A stretch of DNA of 64,000 bases. Source: Mangrovicoccus sp. HB161399. Lineage in GTDB: Bacteria > Pseudomonadota > Alphaproteobacteria > Rhodobacterales > Rhodobacteraceae. The notes beneath the pieces were generated by a model. The model was not told where the DNA came from. It searched no databases and was given only the letters and a program-made list of their open reading frames with translations. The stretch's first letter is position 1; each line of letters starts with the position of its first letter. This document shows positions 47,721 to 58,133 of this stretch, one piece after another. The translations under genes and the position numbers were made by a program. Location of the stretch: contig NZ_JAATVU010000003.1 in the NCBI RefSeq assembly GCF_013184745.1, positions 1 to 64,000 on the forward strand. Reading direction: 5' to 3'.

Positions 47721-48899
47721 CTAGTCGGTGAGAAGCTTGCCGCTTCGCTCGGGCAGGGGATCCTTGCCGGCCACCTTGCCGATCACCTTGCCGGGCCAGG
47801 CGTAGGGCTGGTCGTGGCGGGCAAAGAGCACCCCGTCGGTCGACGCCTCGACATCCGTCGTGCCGCCGAGCGGGTCCGTGACCGTGGCGATGACCTCGCC
47901 TGCGCGAACCGTGTCGCCGAGGCGCACGTGATAGACCACGATGCCCTCGACCGGCGAGATCACCTGCTGCATGGCCTCGAGCGGCATTGCCTCGCACAGC
48001 AGCCGCGGCAGCGCGCCGGCCTCGCCCGCAACCGCGCCGCGATGCTTCAGGAAGCGCATCAGCGCCGCGGCATCGTCCCCGGCCAGCCGCTCGTCGACGT
48101 CGTTGTTGGACCGCAGCTCGACCGTCGCGGCCATGCAGGCGGGCGGCACCGGAACCTCGGGAAAGGCGGCGGCAAGCGCCCACCACGGACCCGAGCAGGC
48201 CTCGTCGAACGGATGCCCGCCCGAGAGATCGCACAGCAGCACCGCGCGGGCGTCGATCTCGGCGGCAAGATCCGCGGCAGCGGGCCAGAGCGCGTTGCCG
48301 GTATAGAGATGCACCAGCGCCTCGTTGTCGGCATGCAGGTCGAGCACGATGTCGGCGTCATGCGCCAGCTCCATCAGCCGGATGCGCAGCCCGTCGAGTT
48401 CGGTGCGGACCGGCAGCCCGGCGATCGCCTCTCCCATGGCGGCGCGGATCGCGGCGACATTGGCCGCTGGGTCGGCGCCGAGGCTGCCGCCGATCGTGCC
48501 GGAGATCATCTCGGCGAGGTCCGGATAGCCGCGGTTGTAGTTCTCGCCGGTCGCGTCGTCATGGCGCCCGCGCAGGTAGCCGCCATGGACCTGCGCGAGT
48601 CCGATCGGATTGGCGACGGGGACCAGCACGATCTCGCCCGCGATGGCGCCCTTCTCCGCGGCCTCCTCCAGCGCGGCGGCCAGCTTGCGCAGCACCAGCA
48701 TGCCGGGAAGCTCGTCGGCATGGAGCCCGGCCTGGATGTAGGCCTTGGGCCGCGCCCCGGGCGTGCCGAAGCGCAGCACCGTCAGCGAGCGCAGATTCTC
48801 CGGGCCAAAGCCCAGGAGCTCGCGTCCCGCGGGGGAAGGTCCGGATGCGGCGCCAGGGGAAGCGGGGGAAAGCGTGCGTTCGTCAGTCGAATCCGTCAT
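47721..48899 (-). CDS. M14-type succinylglutamate desuccinylase/aspartoacylase-family hydrolase
   Basis: A 392-residue zinc hydrolase of the AstE/AspA family. Zinc ligands H60 and E63 (GLHADELPG) and H189 (LDLHAD) are in place. ENYNRGYP (120-126) holds the substrate-carboxylate Asn/Arg, and E261 in ATVELRSNND is the likely catalytic Glu. A C-terminal beta-barrel with lipoyl-like look (SPVEGIVVYHVRLGDTVRAG) is normal for this subgroup. It cleaves N-acyl or peptide-like bonds to acidic amino acids. Divergent from cyanophycin synthetase, so it may act on beta-Asp-Arg from cyanophycin; that role is inference. Start at 48899 with GGAG ahead. Confidence 0.85.
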   Translation of the reverse strand: MTDSTDERTLSPASPGAASGPSPAGRELLGFGPENLRSLTVLRFGTPGARPKAYIQAGLHADELPGMLVLRKLAAALEEAAEKGAIAGEIVLVPVANPIGLAQVHGGYLRGRHDDATGENYNRGYPDLAEMISGTIGGSLGADPAANVAAIRAAMGEAIAGLPVRTELDGLRIRLMELAHDADIVLDLHADNEALVHLYTGNALWPAAADLAAEIDARAVLLCDLSGGHPFDEACSGPWWALAAAFPEVPVPPACMAATVELRSNNDVDERLAGDDAAALMRFLKHRGAVAGEAGALPRLLCEAMPLEAMQQVISPVEGIVVYHVRLGDTVRAGEVIATVTDPLGGTTDVEASTDGVLFARHDQPYAWPGKVIGKVAGKDPLPERSGKLLTD

Positions 48900-49016
48900 G
48901 GCAGTGCTCCGCGATGTCGACAGTGTCAGTTCCTGTGTGGAAAAAAAGCTGCTCCCGGTCAATGCGGCGCGCTGCGGCACGGCCGACGCGGCGGAACGTC
49001 AAATTTTCCTTTCCGG

Positions 49017-49033
49017 CCCCCCGTCACGGGGGG
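49017..49033 (+). other. G/C hairpin in the cyanophycin synthetase leader
   Basis: CCCCCC and GGGGGG close on the loop GTCAC, 47 bp before the cphA start, flanked by AT-rich patches (AAATTTTCC before, GGAATTTTAC after). It could be a leader stem regulating cphA expression or mRNA stability. Confidence 0.5.
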
Positions 49034-49080
49034 TAGGCATGGGGTATCGCGGAATTTTACGGTCGGAGCGGAGATTGAGC

Positions 49081-51822
49081 ATGCAGATTGTCAAGACCTC
49101 GGTCTATGTCGGGCCGAACATCTATTCGAAGAAACCGCTGATCCGCCTCACGGTCGATCTGCACCGCCGCGCCGGCAAGCCCGTCTCGGAATTCGCCGGC
49201 CTGCTGATCGAGCCGCTGCTCGATTACGTGCCCGCGCTGTCGAAGGCGGCCGACGAGACCGGCGCGCCCTTCCTGGAACGCGCGAAGACCGCGGAGGATT
49301 GCGGGCTGGGCGAGCTGATGGCGCAGCTGGCGCTGGCGCTGCAGGCCCAGGCCGGCGCGCCGGGCAGCCTGGCCTTCTCGCGTCCCGCCAGGCATCCCGA
49401 CGAGGTCGAGGTGCTCTTCGGCTATGAATCCGAGGATATCGGCCTGATGGCCGGCGACACGGCGCGCGACCTGATCCTGGACCTGATCGCCCCGCAGGAC
49501 GACACCAGCCCCGAGACGATCCGCGAGGCGGTCGAGGACTTCATCTATTTCGCCGAGCGCAACTCGCTGGGCCCGTCCGCGCTGGCGCTGGTCAAGGCTG
49601 CCGAGGAGCGCGACATTCCCTGGGTGCGCCTGAACGATGCCAGCCTGATCCAGGTGGGGCAGGGCAAGTACCAGAAGCGGATCGAGGCGGCGCTGTCGAG
49701 CCAGACCTCGCATATCGCGGTGGAGATCGCCGCCGACAAGGAGCTGTGCACCAAGCTGCTGTCGGATCTGGGCCTTCCGGTGCCCGACCAGTGCTTCGTG
49801 CGCGATGCCGAGGACGCGGCCGAGGTCGCGGCCGATTTCGGCTTCCCGGTGGTGATCAAGCCGATCGACGGCAACCATGGCCGGGGCGTGACCGTCAACG
49901 TGATGACCGAGAAGGAGGCCGAGGAGGCCTACGAGATCGCGGCCAAGGAAGGCTCGGGGGTCGTGGTCGAGAGCATGATCCAGGGCGACGACCACCGGCT
50001 GCTGGTGGTTGACGGCGTTCTGGTGGCGGCCGCCAAGCGGATGCCGGGCCATGTCGTCGGCGACGGCTCCAGCACGGTTGCGGCGCTGGTCGACAAGGTC
50101 AACGAGGACCCGCGCCGCGGCAAGGGCCACGAGAACATGCTGACCCGGCTGGAGCTCGACGCGGTGGCCGACAAGCTGCTGGCCGAGAAGGGCTATGACC
50201 ACGGCACCGTCCCCGCCGAGGGCGAGGTGGTCTACCTGCGCAAGACCGCGAACCTGTCGACGGGCGGCACCGCGATCGACGTCACCGACGTGATCCACCC
50301 CGACAACAAGCTGATGGCCGAGCGCGCGATCCGCGCCGTCGGCCTCGACATCGGCGGCGTGGACTTCCTGACCACCGACATCACCCAGAGCTACCGCGAT
50401 ACCGGCGGCGCGATCTGCGAGATCAATGCCGGGCCGGGGATGCGGATGCATATCGCCCCCTCCGAGGGCGAGGGCCGAGACGTGGGCGGCGCGGTGATGG
50501 ACATGCTCTTCCCCGAAGGCACTCCCGCGCGCATCCCGGTCGCGGCGCTGACCGGCACCAACGGCAAGACCACCACCGCGCGGATGCTGGCGCATGTGCT
50601 GAAGATGGCGGGCTTCACGGTCGGCCAGACCTCGACCGACGCGGTCTATGTCGACGGCAACGTCACGGTGAAGGGCGACATGACCGGCCCGACCGCGGCC
50701 TCGATGGTGCTGCGCGATCCGACCGTCGACATGGCGGTGCTGGAAACCGCGCGCGGCGGCATCGTCCGGGCCGGCCTCGGCTACCAGTTCTGCGACGTGG
50801 GCGCAGTGCTGAATGTCAGCTCCGACCATCTCGGCCTGGGCGGCGTCGAGACCATCGACGAACTCGCGGAGGTCAAGCGCCTCGTCGTCGAGGTCGCCAA
50901 GGACTGCGCGGTGCTCAATGCCGACGACATCTACACGCTGAAGATGGCCGAATACACCGAGGCCAAGCACATCTGCTACGTCACCAGGAACGCCGACAAC
51001 GCGCTGGTGCGCGAGCACATCAAGCTGGGCAAGCGCGCAGTGGTGCTGGAGCAGGGGCTGAACGGCGACCAGATCGTGATCTACGAGCACGGCCACCAGA
51101 TCCCGCTGATCTGGACCCACCTGATTCCGGCGACGCTGGAGGGCAAGGCGCTCCACAATGTCGAGAACGCGATGTTCACCGCGGCGATGTGCTTCTCGCT
51201 GGGCCTGTCGCTCGACCAGATCCGCACGGGCCTGCGCACCTTCGACAACAGCTTCTTCCAGAGTCCGGGCCGGATGAACGTCTTCGACGAGCACGGCTTC
51301 CGCGTGATCCTCGATTACGGCCACAACGAGGCGGCAGTCGGCGCCATGGTCGACGTGGTGGAGCGGCTGAAGCCGATCGGCAAGAAGATCGTCTGCGTCA
51401 CCTGCCCGGGCGACCGGCGCGACCAGGACATCAAGGCGATCGCCGCCAAGGTGGCGGGCAAGTTCGACCACTACATCTGCCACAGCGACGACAATCCGCG
51501 CGGCCGCACCCCCGAGGAGGTGCCGGGCATCATCCGCGACGAACTGATCGCGCTCGGCGTCTCTCCCGAGGCCATTGACATCGTGCCCAAGGAAGAAGAG
51601 TCCGTGCAGGCTGCGCTGGACATGGCGCGGCCGAACGACCTCGTGCTGATCTTCTGCGACGGCATCACGCGCTGCTGGAAGAAGATCATCTACTTCAAGC
51701 CGAAGGAGGCGCCGCAGCCGGTCCCGCCGGAAACCCTCGTCGCTGCCGCGGGCTTCGACGTGCCGGAAGGGTACCGCCTGATGAGCGACGAGCGCGGGGT
51801 CCGTATCGTCCTGGATACCTGA
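49081..51822 (+). CDS. cphA: Cyanophycin synthetase
   Basis: A 913-residue enzyme of typical CphA length. N-terminal domain 1 to about 160 (GPNIYSKKPLIRLTVDL), an ATP-grasp domain about 210-480 (VVIKPIDGNHGRGVTVNV, CEINAGPGMRMHIAPSEGEG), then a Mur-ligase-like domain with P-loop GTNGKTT (492-498), ETARGGIVRAGLGY and HNVENAMFTAAM. It builds multi-L-arginyl-poly-L-aspartate from Asp and Arg using two ATP sites, making a nitrogen-storage granule in the cytoplasm. The start at 49081 has GGAG upstream. It is followed 19 bp later by cyanophycinase, an operon for synthesis and breakdown. Confidence 0.96.
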   Translation: MQIVKTSVYVGPNIYSKKPLIRLTVDLHRRAGKPVSEFAGLLIEPLLDYVPALSKAADETGAPFLERAKTAEDCGLGELMAQLALALQAQAGAPGSLAFSRPARHPDEVEVLFGYESEDIGLMAGDTARDLILDLIAPQDDTSPETIREAVEDFIYFAERNSLGPSALALVKAAEERDIPWVRLNDASLIQVGQGKYQKRIEAALSSQTSHIAVEIAADKELCTKLLSDLGLPVPDQCFVRDAEDAAEVAADFGFPVVIKPIDGNHGRGVTVNVMTEKEAEEAYEIAAKEGSGVVVESMIQGDDHRLLVVDGVLVAAAKRMPGHVVGDGSSTVAALVDKVNEDPRRGKGHENMLTRLELDAVADKLLAEKGYDHGTVPAEGEVVYLRKTANLSTGGTAIDVTDVIHPDNKLMAERAIRAVGLDIGGVDFLTTDITQSYRDTGGAICEINAGPGMRMHIAPSEGEGRDVGGAVMDMLFPEGTPARIPVAALTGTNGKTTTARMLAHVLKMAGFTVGQTSTDAVYVDGNVTVKGDMTGPTAASMVLRDPTVDMAVLETARGGIVRAGLGYQFCDVGAVLNVSSDHLGLGGVETIDELAEVKRLVVEVAKDCAVLNADDIYTLKMAEYTEAKHICYVTRNADNALVREHIKLGKRAVVLEQGLNGDQIVIYEHGHQIPLIWTHLIPATLEGKALHNVENAMFTAAMCFSLGLSLDQIRTGLRTFDNSFFQSPGRMNVFDEHGFRVILDYGHNEAAVGAMVDVVERLKPIGKKIVCVTCPGDRRDQDIKAIAAKVAGKFDHYICHSDDNPRGRTPEEVPGIIRDELIALGVSPEAIDIVPKEEESVQAALDMARPNDLVLIFCDGITRCWKKIIYFKPKEAPQPVPPETLVAAAGFDVPEGYRLMSDERGVRIVLDT

Positions 51823-51841
51823 ACGGGAGCGGCAACGCGAC

Positions 51842-54028
51842 ATGGCGAAATTTCCATCGAAGGCTGCGCTCTCGGCCTCGGGGGGCCGCAAGCTGGCCGT
51901 GATCGGCGGCCGCCTCGAGGATGACAACGCCGATATCTACGGCGAGATGCACCGGCTGTCGGGCGGGCGGATCCTGGTCTTCCCGACCGCCTCGGCCGAG
52001 CCCGAGGCGGTGGGCGAGGAAAGCCTCGACGCGTTCCGCAGCCACGGTTTCGAGGCCGCGGTCGCGCCGCTCTACGGGCCGCAGGCGGCGCTGCGGGCGG
52101 GCGATCCGGACCTGCTGGCCCTCATCGCGGAATACGGCCATTTCTACTTCACCGGCGGCGACCAGGCGAACATCCTGGCGGCGCTGGCCCCGGGCGGGGT
52201 GCTGACCGCGTCGCACCGGGCGATCACCGCCTGCCTCGCCAAGGGCGGGCTGCTCGCGGGTTCCAGCGCCGGGGCGGCGATGATGTCCCAGCCGATGCTG
52301 CTGGGCGGCACGTCGCTGGAATCCGTCGTCCATGGCGTCACCGAGCGCCCCGAGGCGCCGGGACTGCTGATCGGCGACGGGCTGGGCTTCTTCCCCTTCG
52401 GCATGGTCGACCAGCATTTCATCAAGCGCGGCCGCCTCGGCCGGATGGTGGTGGCGATGCATGCCACCGGGCAGACCACCGGCTTCGGCATCGACGAGAA
52501 CACCGCGCTGATCGTCGAGGGGGGCGCGGGCAAGGTGGTCGGCGAATACGGCGTCATGCTGGTCGACACCACCGGGATGGAGACCGATGCCAACCTGCGC
52601 AGCTACCAGGATTTCCGCCTGAGCTATCTCGACCATGGCGACTGGATCGACCTGCGCACGGGGCGGCCGCATCCGGCCGACGCCAAGCGCAAGGTGCTCA
52701 AGCGCGACATCGCCTATCGCGGCCGGCCGCGCTCGCGCCGCAACGCCTTCGGCGCCTACACGCTCTACGACCTGATGGCGCGGCTGGTGCTGGGCGACCC
52801 CAAGGTCTACCGCCAGGACAGCGTCGAGGCCTATGACGCGAAAAGCGCCTTCAACGTCTCGGTCACGCTGGAGCGGGTCGAGCGCGAGACCAGGTGCATG
52901 ATCTCGACGCCGGAGACCGGCCTGCGCATGACGGCGCTGAATTTCCGCACGACGATCCTGGCCGAGAAGCTCAGCGCGACGCGGCTTGCCGACCGGATGG
53001 GCCGCCGCCAGACCCGGACCTTCGGCATGGACCCGCGTCCCGAGGCGAAGATCGTGCTGCTGGGCTCCTCGCCGCTGCGCTCGGCCGCCGAAATGACCGA
53101 GGCGCCGTTCGCGCTGCTGAAGGGCGGCAAGGTGGGCGTGCTGGCCTCGGCCTCGGCCGAGCCGCGCGCGACCGCGCGGGACCATATCGAGATGCTGGCC
53201 CGCCACGGGATCGAGGGGATCGACCTGGAGGTCACCATCGACACGGTGGAATATGCCGCCCATGACGCGGGCTTCCTGCAGGATGTCGAGGCGATGTCGG
53301 GCTTCCTGTTCTGCGGCGGCAACCAGATCCGGCTGGTGGAGACGCTGCTCCACCGCGGCGAGGAAAGCGCGCTTCTGCGCGCCATCGCCCATGCCCATGC
53401 CAAGGGCGCGCCGCTGATCGCGGCCAGCGGCGCGGCGGCGGCCCTGTCAGGGGTGATGATCGCGGGCGGCTCCACCTACGAGGCGCTGCGCTTCGGCGTG
53501 TCGTCGGATGTCGGCCACCAGGGGCTGGCCATCCAGGAGGGCATCGGCCTCTTCGCGGCGGGGATCGTCGACCAGAACCTGATCAGCCAGGAACGTCTGG
53601 GCCGTCTGGTCGTGGCCTGCGCCGAAGAGAACGAGCGCTTCGGCATCGGGATCTTCGAGGACAGCGCGGTGATCGCCTCCGAGGCCGGGATGAAGCTGGA
53701 GGCCACCGGTCTCGACGGTTTCGTGCTGGTGGAGATCGACCCGGCGCAGCTGGTGCTGCAGAGCGACAATTTCGTCGCCAACGGCGTCCGCCTGACCGTT
53801 TTCGGTCCGGGCGACAGCGTCGATTTGCGCGACGGCACGGTGAGCCGTGCGGGCGATGTCGCGGCATCCGCTGCGCTGCTGGAACGGCTGGTCGTCGGAT
53901 TGTCCGAGGAGGCCGGTGCCGCGGTGGCGGGCGAGAATGCCGGGATCCATGGCGTCATGGCGCGCGAAGGCGGACAGGACGGCGCGACGGCCTGGCTCGA
54001 CCTCGCCTGTCCGCGCGACGATTTCTGA
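51842..54028 (+). CDS. cphB: Double-length cyanophycinase, second half catalytically altered
   Basis: A 728-residue protein, over twice the usual 270-300 of peptidase S51 cyanophycinases, made of two homologous halves. The first (about 15-290) has TGGDQ (104-108), nucleophile S142 in GSSAGA, H192 in VDQHF and E219 in GIDENTAL, a full catalytic set. The second (about 400-665) has CGGNQ (491-495), S529 in AASGAAA, E606 in GIFED, but N579 where the His should be (VDQNL) and a changed nucleophile elbow. Residues about 290-400 form a linker of unknown fold. The active half cleaves cyanophycin to beta-Asp-Arg. Cotranscribed with cphA. Confidence 0.9.
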   Translation: MAKFPSKAALSASGGRKLAVIGGRLEDDNADIYGEMHRLSGGRILVFPTASAEPEAVGEESLDAFRSHGFEAAVAPLYGPQAALRAGDPDLLALIAEYGHFYFTGGDQANILAALAPGGVLTASHRAITACLAKGGLLAGSSAGAAMMSQPMLLGGTSLESVVHGVTERPEAPGLLIGDGLGFFPFGMVDQHFIKRGRLGRMVVAMHATGQTTGFGIDENTALIVEGGAGKVVGEYGVMLVDTTGMETDANLRSYQDFRLSYLDHGDWIDLRTGRPHPADAKRKVLKRDIAYRGRPRSRRNAFGAYTLYDLMARLVLGDPKVYRQDSVEAYDAKSAFNVSVTLERVERETRCMISTPETGLRMTALNFRTTILAEKLSATRLADRMGRRQTRTFGMDPRPEAKIVLLGSSPLRSAAEMTEAPFALLKGGKVGVLASASAEPRATARDHIEMLARHGIEGIDLEVTIDTVEYAAHDAGFLQDVEAMSGFLFCGGNQIRLVETLLHRGEESALLRAIAHAHAKGAPLIAASGAAAALSGVMIAGGSTYEALRFGVSSDVGHQGLAIQEGIGLFAAGIVDQNLISQERLGRLVVACAEENERFGIGIFEDSAVIASEAGMKLEATGLDGFVLVEIDPAQLVLQSDNFVANGVRLTVFGPGDSVDLRDGTVSRAGDVAASAALLERLVVGLSEEAGAAVAGENAGIHGVMAREGGQDGATAWLDLACPRDDF

Positions 54029-54366: not shown

Positions 54367-55062
54367 TCAGCGCGCGTGGGTGATGTAGCGGTTGTAGCGC
54401 GCTTCGAGCTGGCCGAAGATCCAGCTGATCAGCAGGGTCATCAGGTAGTAGATCACGCCCGCGATGACGAAGACCTGGATCGGCTGGTAGGTGTCCGAGG
54501 CGGCCAGCCGCGCCATGCCGGTCAGTTCCAGCAGCGTGATCGTCGAGGCCAGCGAAGTGCCCTTCATCAGGATGATGACCTCGTTGGAATAGGCCGGCAG
54601 GCAGATCGAGAAGGCGCGCGGCAGGATCACCAGCTTGTAGGCCTTGAAGGTGTTCATGCCGCAGGCCCGCGCGGCCTCGATCTCGCCCTTCGGCACCGCG
54701 AGGATGCCGCCGCGGACGATCTCGCCGGAATAGGCGGCGGTGTTCAGCACGAAGGTGATCAGCGCGCAGACATAGGCCTCGCGCAGCACCGGCCACAGGA
54801 ACGACCCGCGGACGAAATCGAACTGGCCCAGCCCGTAATAGACGAGGAAGATCTGCACCAGCAGCGGCGTGCCGCGGAAGAACAGAGAATAGGCAGAGGC
54901 CGCGCCCGCGACGAGGCGGTTCTCGGACAGCCGCGCCAGCGCCAGCGGGATGGCCAGCGCCACGCCCAGGAGCGCCGAGATGACCACGAGCTGCAGCGTC
55001 AGCCAGGCCCCGGAAAGGAAATCGGCCCAGTATTCCGTCAGGATGTCGGCAAAGACCTGCAT
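54367..55062 (-). CDS. Polar amino-acid ABC permease (HisM/ArtM-type)
   Basis: A 231-residue inner-membrane protein with about five hydrophobic segments. The EAA-type loop AARACGMNTFKAYKLVILP and FFRGTPLLVQIFLVYYG are typical of amino-acid permeases of the HisM/GlnP family. Its start shares a base with the stop of the preceding permease (TGATG). Last gene of the four-gene importer operon. Confidence 0.93.
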   Translation of the reverse strand: MQVFADILTEYWADFLSGAWLTLQLVVISALLGVALAIPLALARLSENRLVAGAASAYSLFFRGTPLLVQIFLVYYGLGQFDFVRGSFLWPVLREAYVCALITFVLNTAAYSGEIVRGGILAVPKGEIEAARACGMNTFKAYKLVILPRAFSICLPAYSNEVIILMKGTSLASTITLLELTGMARLAASDTYQPIQVFVIAGVIYYLMTLLISWIFGQLEARYNRYITHAR

Positions 55063-55742
55063 CAGCGCGCTCCTGCCACGCCGCGGCTGGCGCGCTTCTC
55101 GGCCTTGGCGATCAGCCACATGGAGATCAGGGTGATGATCAGGAACATCAGCGAGGCCACGAGGTAGAAGGTGAAGGGTTCGCGCGTGGTCTGCGCCGCC
55201 TGCTGCGCCTTGCGCATCACGTCGTCGAGCCCGACCACCGAAACCAGCGCCGTGTCCTTGACCGATCCCTGCCAGAGATTGCCGAGCCCGGGGATCGCGA
55301 CGCGCCAGATCTGCGGCATCTGGATGTAGCGGAAGCACTGCCAGGCCGAGAAGCCGTAGGCGCGGCCCGCCTCGATCTGGCCTCTCGGCACCGACTGGAA
55401 GGCGGCGCGGAAGGTCTCGGACGCGTAGGCGCCGAAGATCACCCCGAGCGCGATCAGGCCGGCCAGGAAGGGGCTGACATTCGGGGCCTTGTCGCCGAAG
55501 ACCTGCCCCAGCACCTGCGTGCCGCCGAAATAGATGACGAGCAGCACCAGGAATTCCGGGATGCCGCGCAGGAAGTTCGTCACCCAGAAGGCCGGGCGCG
55601 ACAGCCAGGCGCGGGGCGAGAGCTTTGCCAGCGCCAGCAGCAGCCCGAGGATCAGCCCGACGATCACGGTCGAGACCGCCAGCTTCAGCGTGGTCGCCAG
55701 CCCCTGGAGGAGCAGCGGCAGATAGTCGATCACCGGCTGCAT
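55062..55742 (-). CDS. Polar amino-acid ABC permease (HisQ/ArtQ-type)
   Basis: A 226-residue inner-membrane permease. The N-terminal half carries LAVSTVIVGLILGLLLALAK and TNFLRGIPEFLVLLVIYFG, and the EAA loop is in EAGRAYGFSAWQCFRYIQMP. It pairs with HisM-type permease encoded just downstream. It follows the binding-protein gene by 22 bp. Confidence 0.93.
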   Translation of the reverse strand: MQPVIDYLPLLLQGLATTLKLAVSTVIVGLILGLLLALAKLSPRAWLSRPAFWVTNFLRGIPEFLVLLVIYFGGTQVLGQVFGDKAPNVSPFLAGLIALGVIFGAYASETFRAAFQSVPRGQIEAGRAYGFSAWQCFRYIQMPQIWRVAIPGLGNLWQGSVKDTALVSVVGLDDVMRKAQQAAQTTREPFTFYLVASLMFLIITLISMWLIAKAEKRASRGVAGAR

Positions 55743-55764
55743 GCGCCGCTCCTCCTTTGCGGGG

Positions 55765-56529
55765 TTACTTCGGCGAGATGTCCGAGCTCATGTACTTGGC
55801 GTTGATCTCGGCATACTTGCCCGAGGCGATGATCGCGGCCAGCGCGGCGTCGAACTTCGCCTTCAGCTCCGTCTCGTCCTTGCGCAGGCCGATGCCGGCG
55901 CCTTCGCCCAGCAGCGGATCGCTGACCGGTTCGCCGACCTGGGCGAAGCCCGCGCCGTCGTCGGAGGCAAGGAATTCCTCGATCACGACCGAGTCCGCGA
56001 AGACCAGGTCGACCCGGCCGGAGACCAGATCCAGCGTCGCCGCTTCCAGCGTGTCATAGTACTGGACGCGCGCGCCGGGCAGCTTCTCCTCGACATAGGC
56101 GGCCATGGTGGTGCCGCGCTGCACGCCGATGAACTTGCGCTTCAGGCTTTCCGGGGTGAGCTCGAAATCGGCGTCCTTCGGGCCGATGAACAGGCCCGGC
56201 GTGACATAGTAGGGCCCGGCGAAGTCGATCGCCTTCAGGCGGTCCTCGGTGATGAACATCGAGGCGATGATCGCGTCGATCTTGCCGGCGTTCAGCGCCG
56301 GGATGAGCCCGTCGAAGCTCTGGTTCGAGATGGTGCACTCGACCTTCATCTCCTCGCAGAGCGCGTTGGTGATGTCGATGTCGAAGCCCGACAGCTCGCC
56401 CGAGGGCAGCACGAAGGCGAAGGGCGGATAGGCGGCCTCGGTGCCGATGGTCAGCGTTTCCTGCGCCAGGGCGGGCAGTGCGGCGCCGGCAAGCAGGGTG
56501 GCCGCGAGAAGGGAAGTCAGTCGGGACAT
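55765..56529 (-). CDS. Lysine/arginine/ornithine-type periplasmic binding protein
   Basis: A 254-residue SBP_bac_3 protein with a signal peptide 1-22 (cut at LAQ). [20 protein letters not shown] and [15 protein letters not shown] match ArgT/HisJ-type binding proteins, suggesting basic amino acids. Arginine is a building block of cyanophycin made by the neighbouring cphA, so uptake of Arg for storage is a plausible role. Confidence 0.92.
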
Positions 56530-56593
56530 GGCAGTGTCATCCTTGTCTGGGTCGGTGCCCGGGCAGGCGGTCGTGCCCGGCCCGGCGGAAAGG

Positions 56594-57382
56594 TTACTTC
56601 AGGCTGCCCGACAGGAACTGCCGGAAGCGTTCGGAATTGGGATTGGCCAGGAGCGCGCGGGGTTCGCCCTCGTCCTCGACCACGCCCTTGTGCAGGAACA
56701 TGACCTTGTTGGCCGCCTCGCGGGCGAAGCCGATCTCGTGGGTGACGACCAGCATGGTGCGGCCCTCTTCGGCCAGGCCGCGCATCACGCGCAGCACCTC
56801 GTTGACCAGTTCGGGATCGAGCGCCGAGGTCGGCTCGTCGAAGAGCATCACCTCGGGGTCCATGGCCAGCGCGCGGGCGATCGCGACGCGCTGCTGCTGG
56901 CCGCCCGAGAGCTGGCTGGGATAGTGGCCGCGCTTGTCGGCGACGCCGACCTTGGCCAGCATCGCCTCGGCCTTCTCGGCGGCTTCCGCCTTGCCGCGGC
57001 CCAGAACGTGGATCTGCGCGGCGGTGACGTTCTCCAGGATCGTCATGTGCTGCCACAGGTTGAACTGCTGGAACACCATCGCCAGCTTGGAGCGGATGCG
57101 GTCGACCTGCTTGGGATCGGCCGGGGCGGGCGCGCCGTGGCGCGTGCCCATCTTGATCAGCTCGCCCTTGACGCGTACCTCGCCGGCGGTGGGCGTCTCC
57201 AGCAGGTTGATGCAGCGCAGGAAGGTCGACTTGCCCGAGCCCGAGGAGCCGAGGATCGCCACGACGTCATGCTCGTGCGCCTTCAGCGAGATGCCCTTGA
57301 GGACCTCCTGCTCGCCGAATGTCTTGCGAATTCCGGTGACCTCGAGGGCCAGCTGCCCGCTGGGGCTTCCGCTTGTCGTCAT
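56594..57382 (-). CDS. Polar amino-acid ABC ATPase (HisP/GlnQ-type)
   Basis: A 262-residue ATPase: Walker [10 protein letters not shown], signature [14 protein letters not shown], Walker [15 protein letters not shown] and switch His in VVTHEIGFA. The insertion about residue 80-100 ([17 protein letters not shown]) is as in HisP-type proteins. The start at 57382 has only a weak ribosome site (GTGATT). First gene of the importer operon; the longer upstream frame is GC-rich non-coding in character. Confidence 0.92.
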
Positions 57383-58133
57383 CAAATCACCAAACCCCGC
57401 GCCGCTGCGGCCGATCTGCCTGAAACCGGCGGTGCGCTGTCCCGCCTTGCAATTCCCCGAAGGATCCCGGGCCTGCGCTCGGCGCCCCTCGCGCCGCCCG
57501 CGGCAATCCCGCGTCCCGGCCCCAGAAGTTCCGCGGAAGGCCCGAAAGGTCAAGAGTTTTCCGGCCCATCCAGCGACATGACGTCGCGACCCGCCGCCGG
57601 GAAAAGGGCCGCCGCCGCCCGGTTTTCCGCAAATGACTAAATATTTACCACATGACGCCGGGTCCGCGCGGCCGCCGTGGCGGAGCTCTGCAGGACCTGC
57701 CGGACGGGACGCGCCGCGGCCTCCGCGCGGCAGGACGCCCGGTGCCGCAGGGACCGAGTCCCGCGGCGGCGCTGCAGGGCGGCGGAAGCGCGGCCAGGCG
57801 GGCGGAAATTGGTCAGGTCGTCTGTCCGGGACGCTGCGGCAGGTCCCGTCCGCCGCGCCGCGGCCGGTCTGCAGGGGCACGGAAATGCGGTCATAGCCAT
57901 ACGCTGGATGCATGTTTGATCTGCATCAAACAGGAGTCACTCGCCTGTTTTCGCCGCGCAGCGGAAACGTGTTCCAAAAAAGATAATTGAAAATCAGATT
58001 GTTAAAAATTCACATCGGATTATCACGTTCCCGTGCACACCTCAGGGTTGTGACCATGCCGCAATGCGGCGCTTGCATGTGCGGCCGCGCAAGATAATTT
58101 CGCGGCGGGGAGGCCCTGGACGATAGGGGTGTC
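57383..58133. other. Gene-free interval of 751 bp, divergent control region for ABC operon and mqo
   Basis: The first 500 bp are GC-rich without a family-like frame. From about 57900 the DNA becomes AT-rich and contains an Fnr-type site and an imperfect hairpin GTTTTCGC/GCGGAAAC (57947-57968), consistent with the mqo promoter region. Confidence 0.55.
57916..57929. promoter_or_regulatory. Fnr/FnrL-type box TTGAT-CTGC-ATCAA
   Basis: A perfect match to the FNR-family consensus TTGAT-N4-ATCAA, in the AT-rich spacer 205 bp upstream of the mqo start. It implies control by an oxygen-sensing Fnr-type protein, either of mqo or of the divergent ABC operon far upstream. Confidence 0.7.

Follow-up and report, generated by a model that had tools for sequence, protein, structure and literature searches.

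A tandem cyanophycinase from Mangrovicoccus sp. HB161399 with a putative, conserved pseudoenzyme as its second unit

Introduction

Cyanophycin is a nitrogen-storage polymer, and the engagement and control of cyanophycin-degrading enzymes on insoluble granules are little understood. CphB of Synechocystis PCC 6803 (PDB 3en0, 7uqw), composed of a single S51 domain, forms homodimers.(PMC12661447) The partner protein ArgD nearly doubles its activity and, in a model, touches His174 and Arg178, two residues reported to be necessary for substrate binding.(PMC12661447) CphE-like long cyanophycinases (L012, L013, L014, L021, and L064) also possess one unit only, followed by a C-terminal helix/strand domain. 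A plasmid-borne cyanophycinase of Cytobacillus spongiae (WP_233812150.1, L048:3884-6412) carries two units head to tail with Ser, His, and Glu in both, the N-terminus of its unit 1 being split off into an upstream ORF. PDB 7uqv from Pseudobacteroides cellulosolvens, named 'pseudo-CphB', adopts the cyanophycinase fold as a single unit and keeps Ser, His, and Glu despite its name. A published tandem or dead cyanophycinase was not found in the literature searched, which covered few subscription papers.

Here we describe a two-unit cyanophycinase encoded in the window, the 64,000-nucleotide stretch of Mangrovicoccus DNA analysed in this work. Its unit 1 has the S51 fold, triad, and pocket residues of CphB, and its unit 2 shares with CphB the fold and some of the pocket; CphB lacks the dead second unit by which the tandem differs. 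The closest relatives of unit 1 are the long CphE-like enzymes, which have the same C-terminal domain and, unlike the tandem, one unit only. The Cytobacillus protein has the head-to-tail layout of the tandem and is not specifically related to it.

Results

Architecture of the tandem

The gene and its parts are as follows.

51842–54028, + strand: two-unit cyanophycinase gene, a 728-aa ORF starting 19 bp after cphA
51890–52687, + strand: unit 1 S51 domain (aa ~17–282), with the triad S142, H192, E219 intact
52688–53041, + strand: former 'linker' (aa ~283–400), the C-terminal helix and β-strand domain of a CphE-like unit
53042–53734, + strand: unit 2 S51-like domain, a putative pseudoenzyme (aa ~401–631), with S529, N579, E606
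53735–54025, + strand: unit 2 C-terminal tail (aa 632–728), corresponding in degenerate form to the C-terminal domain of unit 1

The encoded protein is two CphE-like units in tandem. The NCBIfam cyanophycinase model TIGR02069 (curated cut-off 126.6 bits) matches the gene twice, with unit 1 passing at 145.7 bits and unit 2 failing at 94 bits. The first-pass annotation was right to set the protein apart from standard single-domain cyanophycinases. Unit 1 scores 57.5 bits against Pfam S51, and unit 2 alone scores 16.2 bits against PF03575 (Peptidase S51), under the gathering score of 23.9. The two halves align gap-free across both motifs, pairing S142 with S529, H192 with N579, and E219 with E606. 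Translation confirms the ORF coordinates and these six residues as first annotated, together with the change of the GSSAGA elbow to AASGAAA in unit 2.

The stretch between the halves, initially read as a 110-residue linker, is instead the C-terminal domain of the CphE-like unit. A profile of aa 17–400 aligned by hhalign to the long single CphE-like cyanophycinases with a probability of 100 and an E value of 1.5e-56 over 354 columns, the match spanning aa 17–379 and reaching the C-terminal end of those proteins. By sequence alone, similarity extends to the 'TLYDLMARLV' helix and fades past it; DSSP assigns one helix (305–317) and four strands (325–332, 337–345, 351–354, and 361–376) to the region. 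Unit 2 (aa 401 on) repeats the first part of unit 1 (hhalign, 283 columns, E 2e-35), with an alignment that runs to aa ~690 and covers the first helix of the tail, which is shorter than the unit 1 C-terminal domain. The tandem has no signal-peptide-like start, whereas the long single homologues L012 and L064, inspected by eye, have one; combined with the linkage to cphA, this suggests that the tandem is intracellular. The gene is also overlapped by an antisense open frame of 567 aa (51695–53398), a by-product to be expected at 70% G+C.

Catalytic and pocket residues

Comparison covered 14 tandem proteins, comprising that of the window and those of 13 further loci, one of which (L056) is a fragment without unit 1. 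Positions are given in CphB numbering, and the pocket residues are those that we take to line the pocket in the CphB structure. Unit 1 possesses the complete Ser-His-Glu triad along with pocket residues Gln101, Asp172, Gln173, Arg178, Arg180, and Arg183, and Ser132, His174, and Glu201 are kept throughout the unit 1 copies and 33 active comparators.

In unit 2, the His-to-Asn change singled out in the first-pass annotation proves to be a fixed loss across the two-domain homologues, with Asn at position 174 in ten of the 14 and Lys in the other four; His is lost in none of the 33 comparators. Replacement in every homologue also dismisses Asn579 as a sequencing error. Three further changes occur in all 14 proteins: Ala133-Gly134 (the AG of SAGA) becomes Gly-Ala, Arg178 becomes Q/S/G/A/H, and Asp200 becomes F/L/C. 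Ser132 is replaced by Gly in two members (L058 and L059), both of which combine this Gly with Lys at 174; loss of the nucleophile as well is an argument against selection for catalysis in unit 2. Gln101, Asp172, Gln173, Arg180, and Glu201 are invariant (14/14), and a long conserved motif, GAA.ALSG.MI.GG...EALR.G...D.G..GL.IQEG.G.F, runs from the elbow to the DQ motif. Arg183 is kept in 13 of 14, the exception being the damaged MAG sequence L051, which lacks Arg183 in unit 1 too.

The alignment of tandem homologues was also searched for another His in the catalytic position, and none is conserved in unit 2 of both clades. The His of a DVGH motif (aa 559), considered as a substitute base, is Arg in the second clade. 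A phmmer comparison with PDB chains had placed Ser529 on Thr131, which would shift the nucleophile to Gly530; this was rejected, as Ser529 falls on Ser132 both in the multiple alignment and when unit 2 is aligned, without gaps, to unit 1, and lies between strand and helix in the model described below.

These patterns make an asymmetry of one live and one dead unit highly probable, as the first-pass annotation proposed in calling the protein an enzyme plus a pseudoenzyme: His is lost from 14 of 14 unit 2 copies versus 0 of 33 comparators, and Arg178 and Asp200 are gone from all. That unit 2 is a conserved pseudoenzyme, its catalytic residues lost and its domain kept by selection, is well supported at the level of sequence.

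The contig of L051 is titled as an Exiguobacterium profundum MAG and carries a gene ~75% identical to the alphaproteobacterial tandem; the title looks wrong, and damage to the sequence is suggested by its ambiguous bases and by changes of Arg to Leu. Among the single cyanophycinase homologues, L023 has Thr at both Glu201 and Arg178 and is possibly another dead member.

Predicted structures

The full-length model is of moderate quality (pLDDT 74.7, pTM 0.57) and leaves the relative placing of the units unfixed. The unit 1 model matches 3en0 with a Z score of 27.8. Unit 2 modelled alone by AlphaFold reaches a pLDDT of 87.6 and a pTM of 0.89 and is closest to the same entry (Z 29.2, 2.1 Å over 254 residues), predicting a cyanophycinase (Peptidase S51) fold. 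Ser529 lies between strand 525–528 and helix 530–534, the nucleophile-elbow position.

Distribution, history, and selection

Exact peptide patterns from the linker and unit 2, a search that may miss diverged tandems, were scanned against 84,980 species genomes and recovered 12 tandem loci; a family search added one further (L004). Hosts include Mangrovicoccus, Tropicimonas, Amaricoccus, Sinirhodobacter, Granulosicoccus, Mycobacterium, and others. Within the family of the window, two of 394 sampled genomes, nearly all of different genera, carry the tandem, and 27 others hold single-unit matches. The family of Mycobacterium M26 yields one tandem in 121 sampled genomes, that of M26 only. The tandem is the sole cyanophycinase of its own genome and of nine other tandem genomes. 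It is real, conserved, and rare, apparently undescribed in the searched literature, and a variant within a known enzyme family. Towards its 3' end (L049:9305-9470), the copy of Mangrovicoccus ximenensis seems to carry a frameshift.

Each unit forms one clade in the tree (100/100) with broadly matching branching, which indicates a single fusion event and joint inheritance of the pair since then, with transfer of the tandem between Pseudomonadota and Mycobacterium. A recent internal duplication is unsupported, as each unit sits in a clade of its own on a long stem; support for which clade is sister to which is 58/22. A search of phage records for a phage origin gave no match. In the rhodobacterial group, identity averages 0.72 for each unit; between the two clades, it averages 0.62 for unit 1 and 0.54 for unit 2.

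Purifying selection acts on unit 2 as strongly as on unit 1. Across seven pairs, dN/dS of the S51 domains (unit 1/unit 2) is 0.12/0.13, 0.30/0.22, 0.26/0.26, 0.25/0.26, 0.07/0.06, 0.19/0.19, and 0.16/0.20, ranging from 0.07 to 0.30 for unit 1 and from 0.06 to 0.26 for unit 2. Relaxed selection on unit 2 is rejected by values close to those of unit 1 in every pair. That unit 2 is a decaying, functionless duplicate, as its lost catalytic residues might imply, is extremely improbable given these values and a single-origin fusion kept across two phyla.

Genomic neighbourhood

Three neighbours accompany the tandem in the window.

47721–48980, − strand: AstE/AspA-family hydrolase, divergent from cphA (PDB 8ein/8eip, E 2e-123; PF24827)
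49027–51822, + strand: cphA, cyanophycin synthetase (TIGR02068, 1012 bits, cut-off 850)
54367–57388, − strand: arginine/histidine-type ABC transporter (two permeases, binding protein, ATPase)

In 13 of the 14 loci, cphA lies upstream of the tandem; the fourteenth, L056, comes from a contig that begins within the tandem gene. A CphZ-like gene of the AstE/AspA family is usually present too and is near the tandem in both clades. Entries 8ein/8eip are deposited in the PDB as succinylglutamate desuccinylase, and we take them to be the dipeptidase CphZ. The product of 47721–48980 is accordingly a probable CphZ-type β-Asp-Arg dipeptidase, a lead drawn from homology. Alphaproteobacteria with cphA are often without IaaA and IadA,(PMC10206079) a frequent absence that the presence of CphZ would explain. 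Arginine/histidine-type transporter genes also adjoin the tandem in L050 and L053. Taken together, the gene set of the locus makes, cuts, and probably finishes degrading cyanophycin.

In Mycobacterium sp. M26 (L060:5124-14382), cphA, the tandem, a CphZ-like gene, an arginine/ornithine antiporter, and arginine deiminase follow one another on one strand, an order that would fit a flow of stored arginine into the deiminase pathway and that was not seen in the other tandem loci. The Mangrovicoccus genome was found to lack such an arginine deiminase partner.

Discussion

The tandem is best read as a doubled CphE-like enzyme in which unit 1 would be the active cyanophycinase, cleaving cyanophycin to β-Asp-Arg dipeptides, and unit 2, its fold preserved along with some of the chain-end pocket, would be incapable of Ser-His-Glu catalysis. 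Unit 2 would most likely stand in for the partner protomer of the homodimer that cyanophycinases usually form, in a pseudo-dimer packing that is speculative, and either its residual pocket would hold or position cyanophycin, itself a speculative role, or unit 2 would tune unit 1. We put the probability of this whole explanation at roughly 0.5. Homodimerisation of CphB and its stimulation by ArgD make a fused dead protomer that completes the dimer and holds polymer or tunes unit 1 a reasonable proposal. The dead half probably has a job, as its relatives keep the arrangement, and the kept pocket residues and purifying selection make the roles first suggested for it, in polymer binding, granule anchoring, or regulation, plausible. 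Against polymer binding, unit 2 has lost Arg178 and His174, reported to be necessary for substrate binding in CphB, and its pocket may no longer bind cyanophycin. A narrower form, in which unit 2 stands in for the second protomer as a built-in cyanophycin-binding pseudo-protomer that holds an uncut chain end and thereby anchors the enzyme on the storage granule or gives unit 1 processivity, is tentative.

Losses at His174, Arg178, and Asp200, in weakening the pocket, also favour a purely structural role, in which unit 2, as a dead protomer, provides the missing half of a dimer-like interface and makes unit 1 more stable, without a ligand of its own. The homodimeric state of CphB fits such a role.(PMC12661447) The invariance of five residues (Gln101, Asp172, Gln173, Arg180, and Glu201) and the long motif from the elbow to the DQ motif seem to exceed what an interface needs, and we regard a purely structural unit 2 as possible yet doubtful. 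Partial retention of the pocket would equally suit an allosteric sensor of arginine or β-Asp-Arg that controls unit 1, and the near doubling of CphB activity by ArgD implies that a cyanophycinase can be tuned by a partner protein.(PMC12661447) The identity of a ligand is not readable from sequence, however, and this role is unlikely.

Ser and Glu are kept in most unit 2 copies, and the model retains the strand-Ser529-helix geometry of the elbow, as might be expected if unit 2 were still an enzyme, with Asn or Lys at 174 serving as the base or with another substrate. The base nevertheless varies between Asn and Lys, L058 and L059 combine Lys with loss of Ser, and no conserved His stands in elsewhere, the DVGH His of one clade being Arg in the other; continued catalysis by unit 2 is very improbable.

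The tandem may serve as a part for enzymatic β-Asp-Arg dipeptide production. A conserved live/dead pair in one chain also constitutes a natural experiment on whether polymer binding, dimerisation, and regulation are separable from catalysis. If the binding role is true, unit 2 would represent a polymer-binding module whose source is the enzyme itself.
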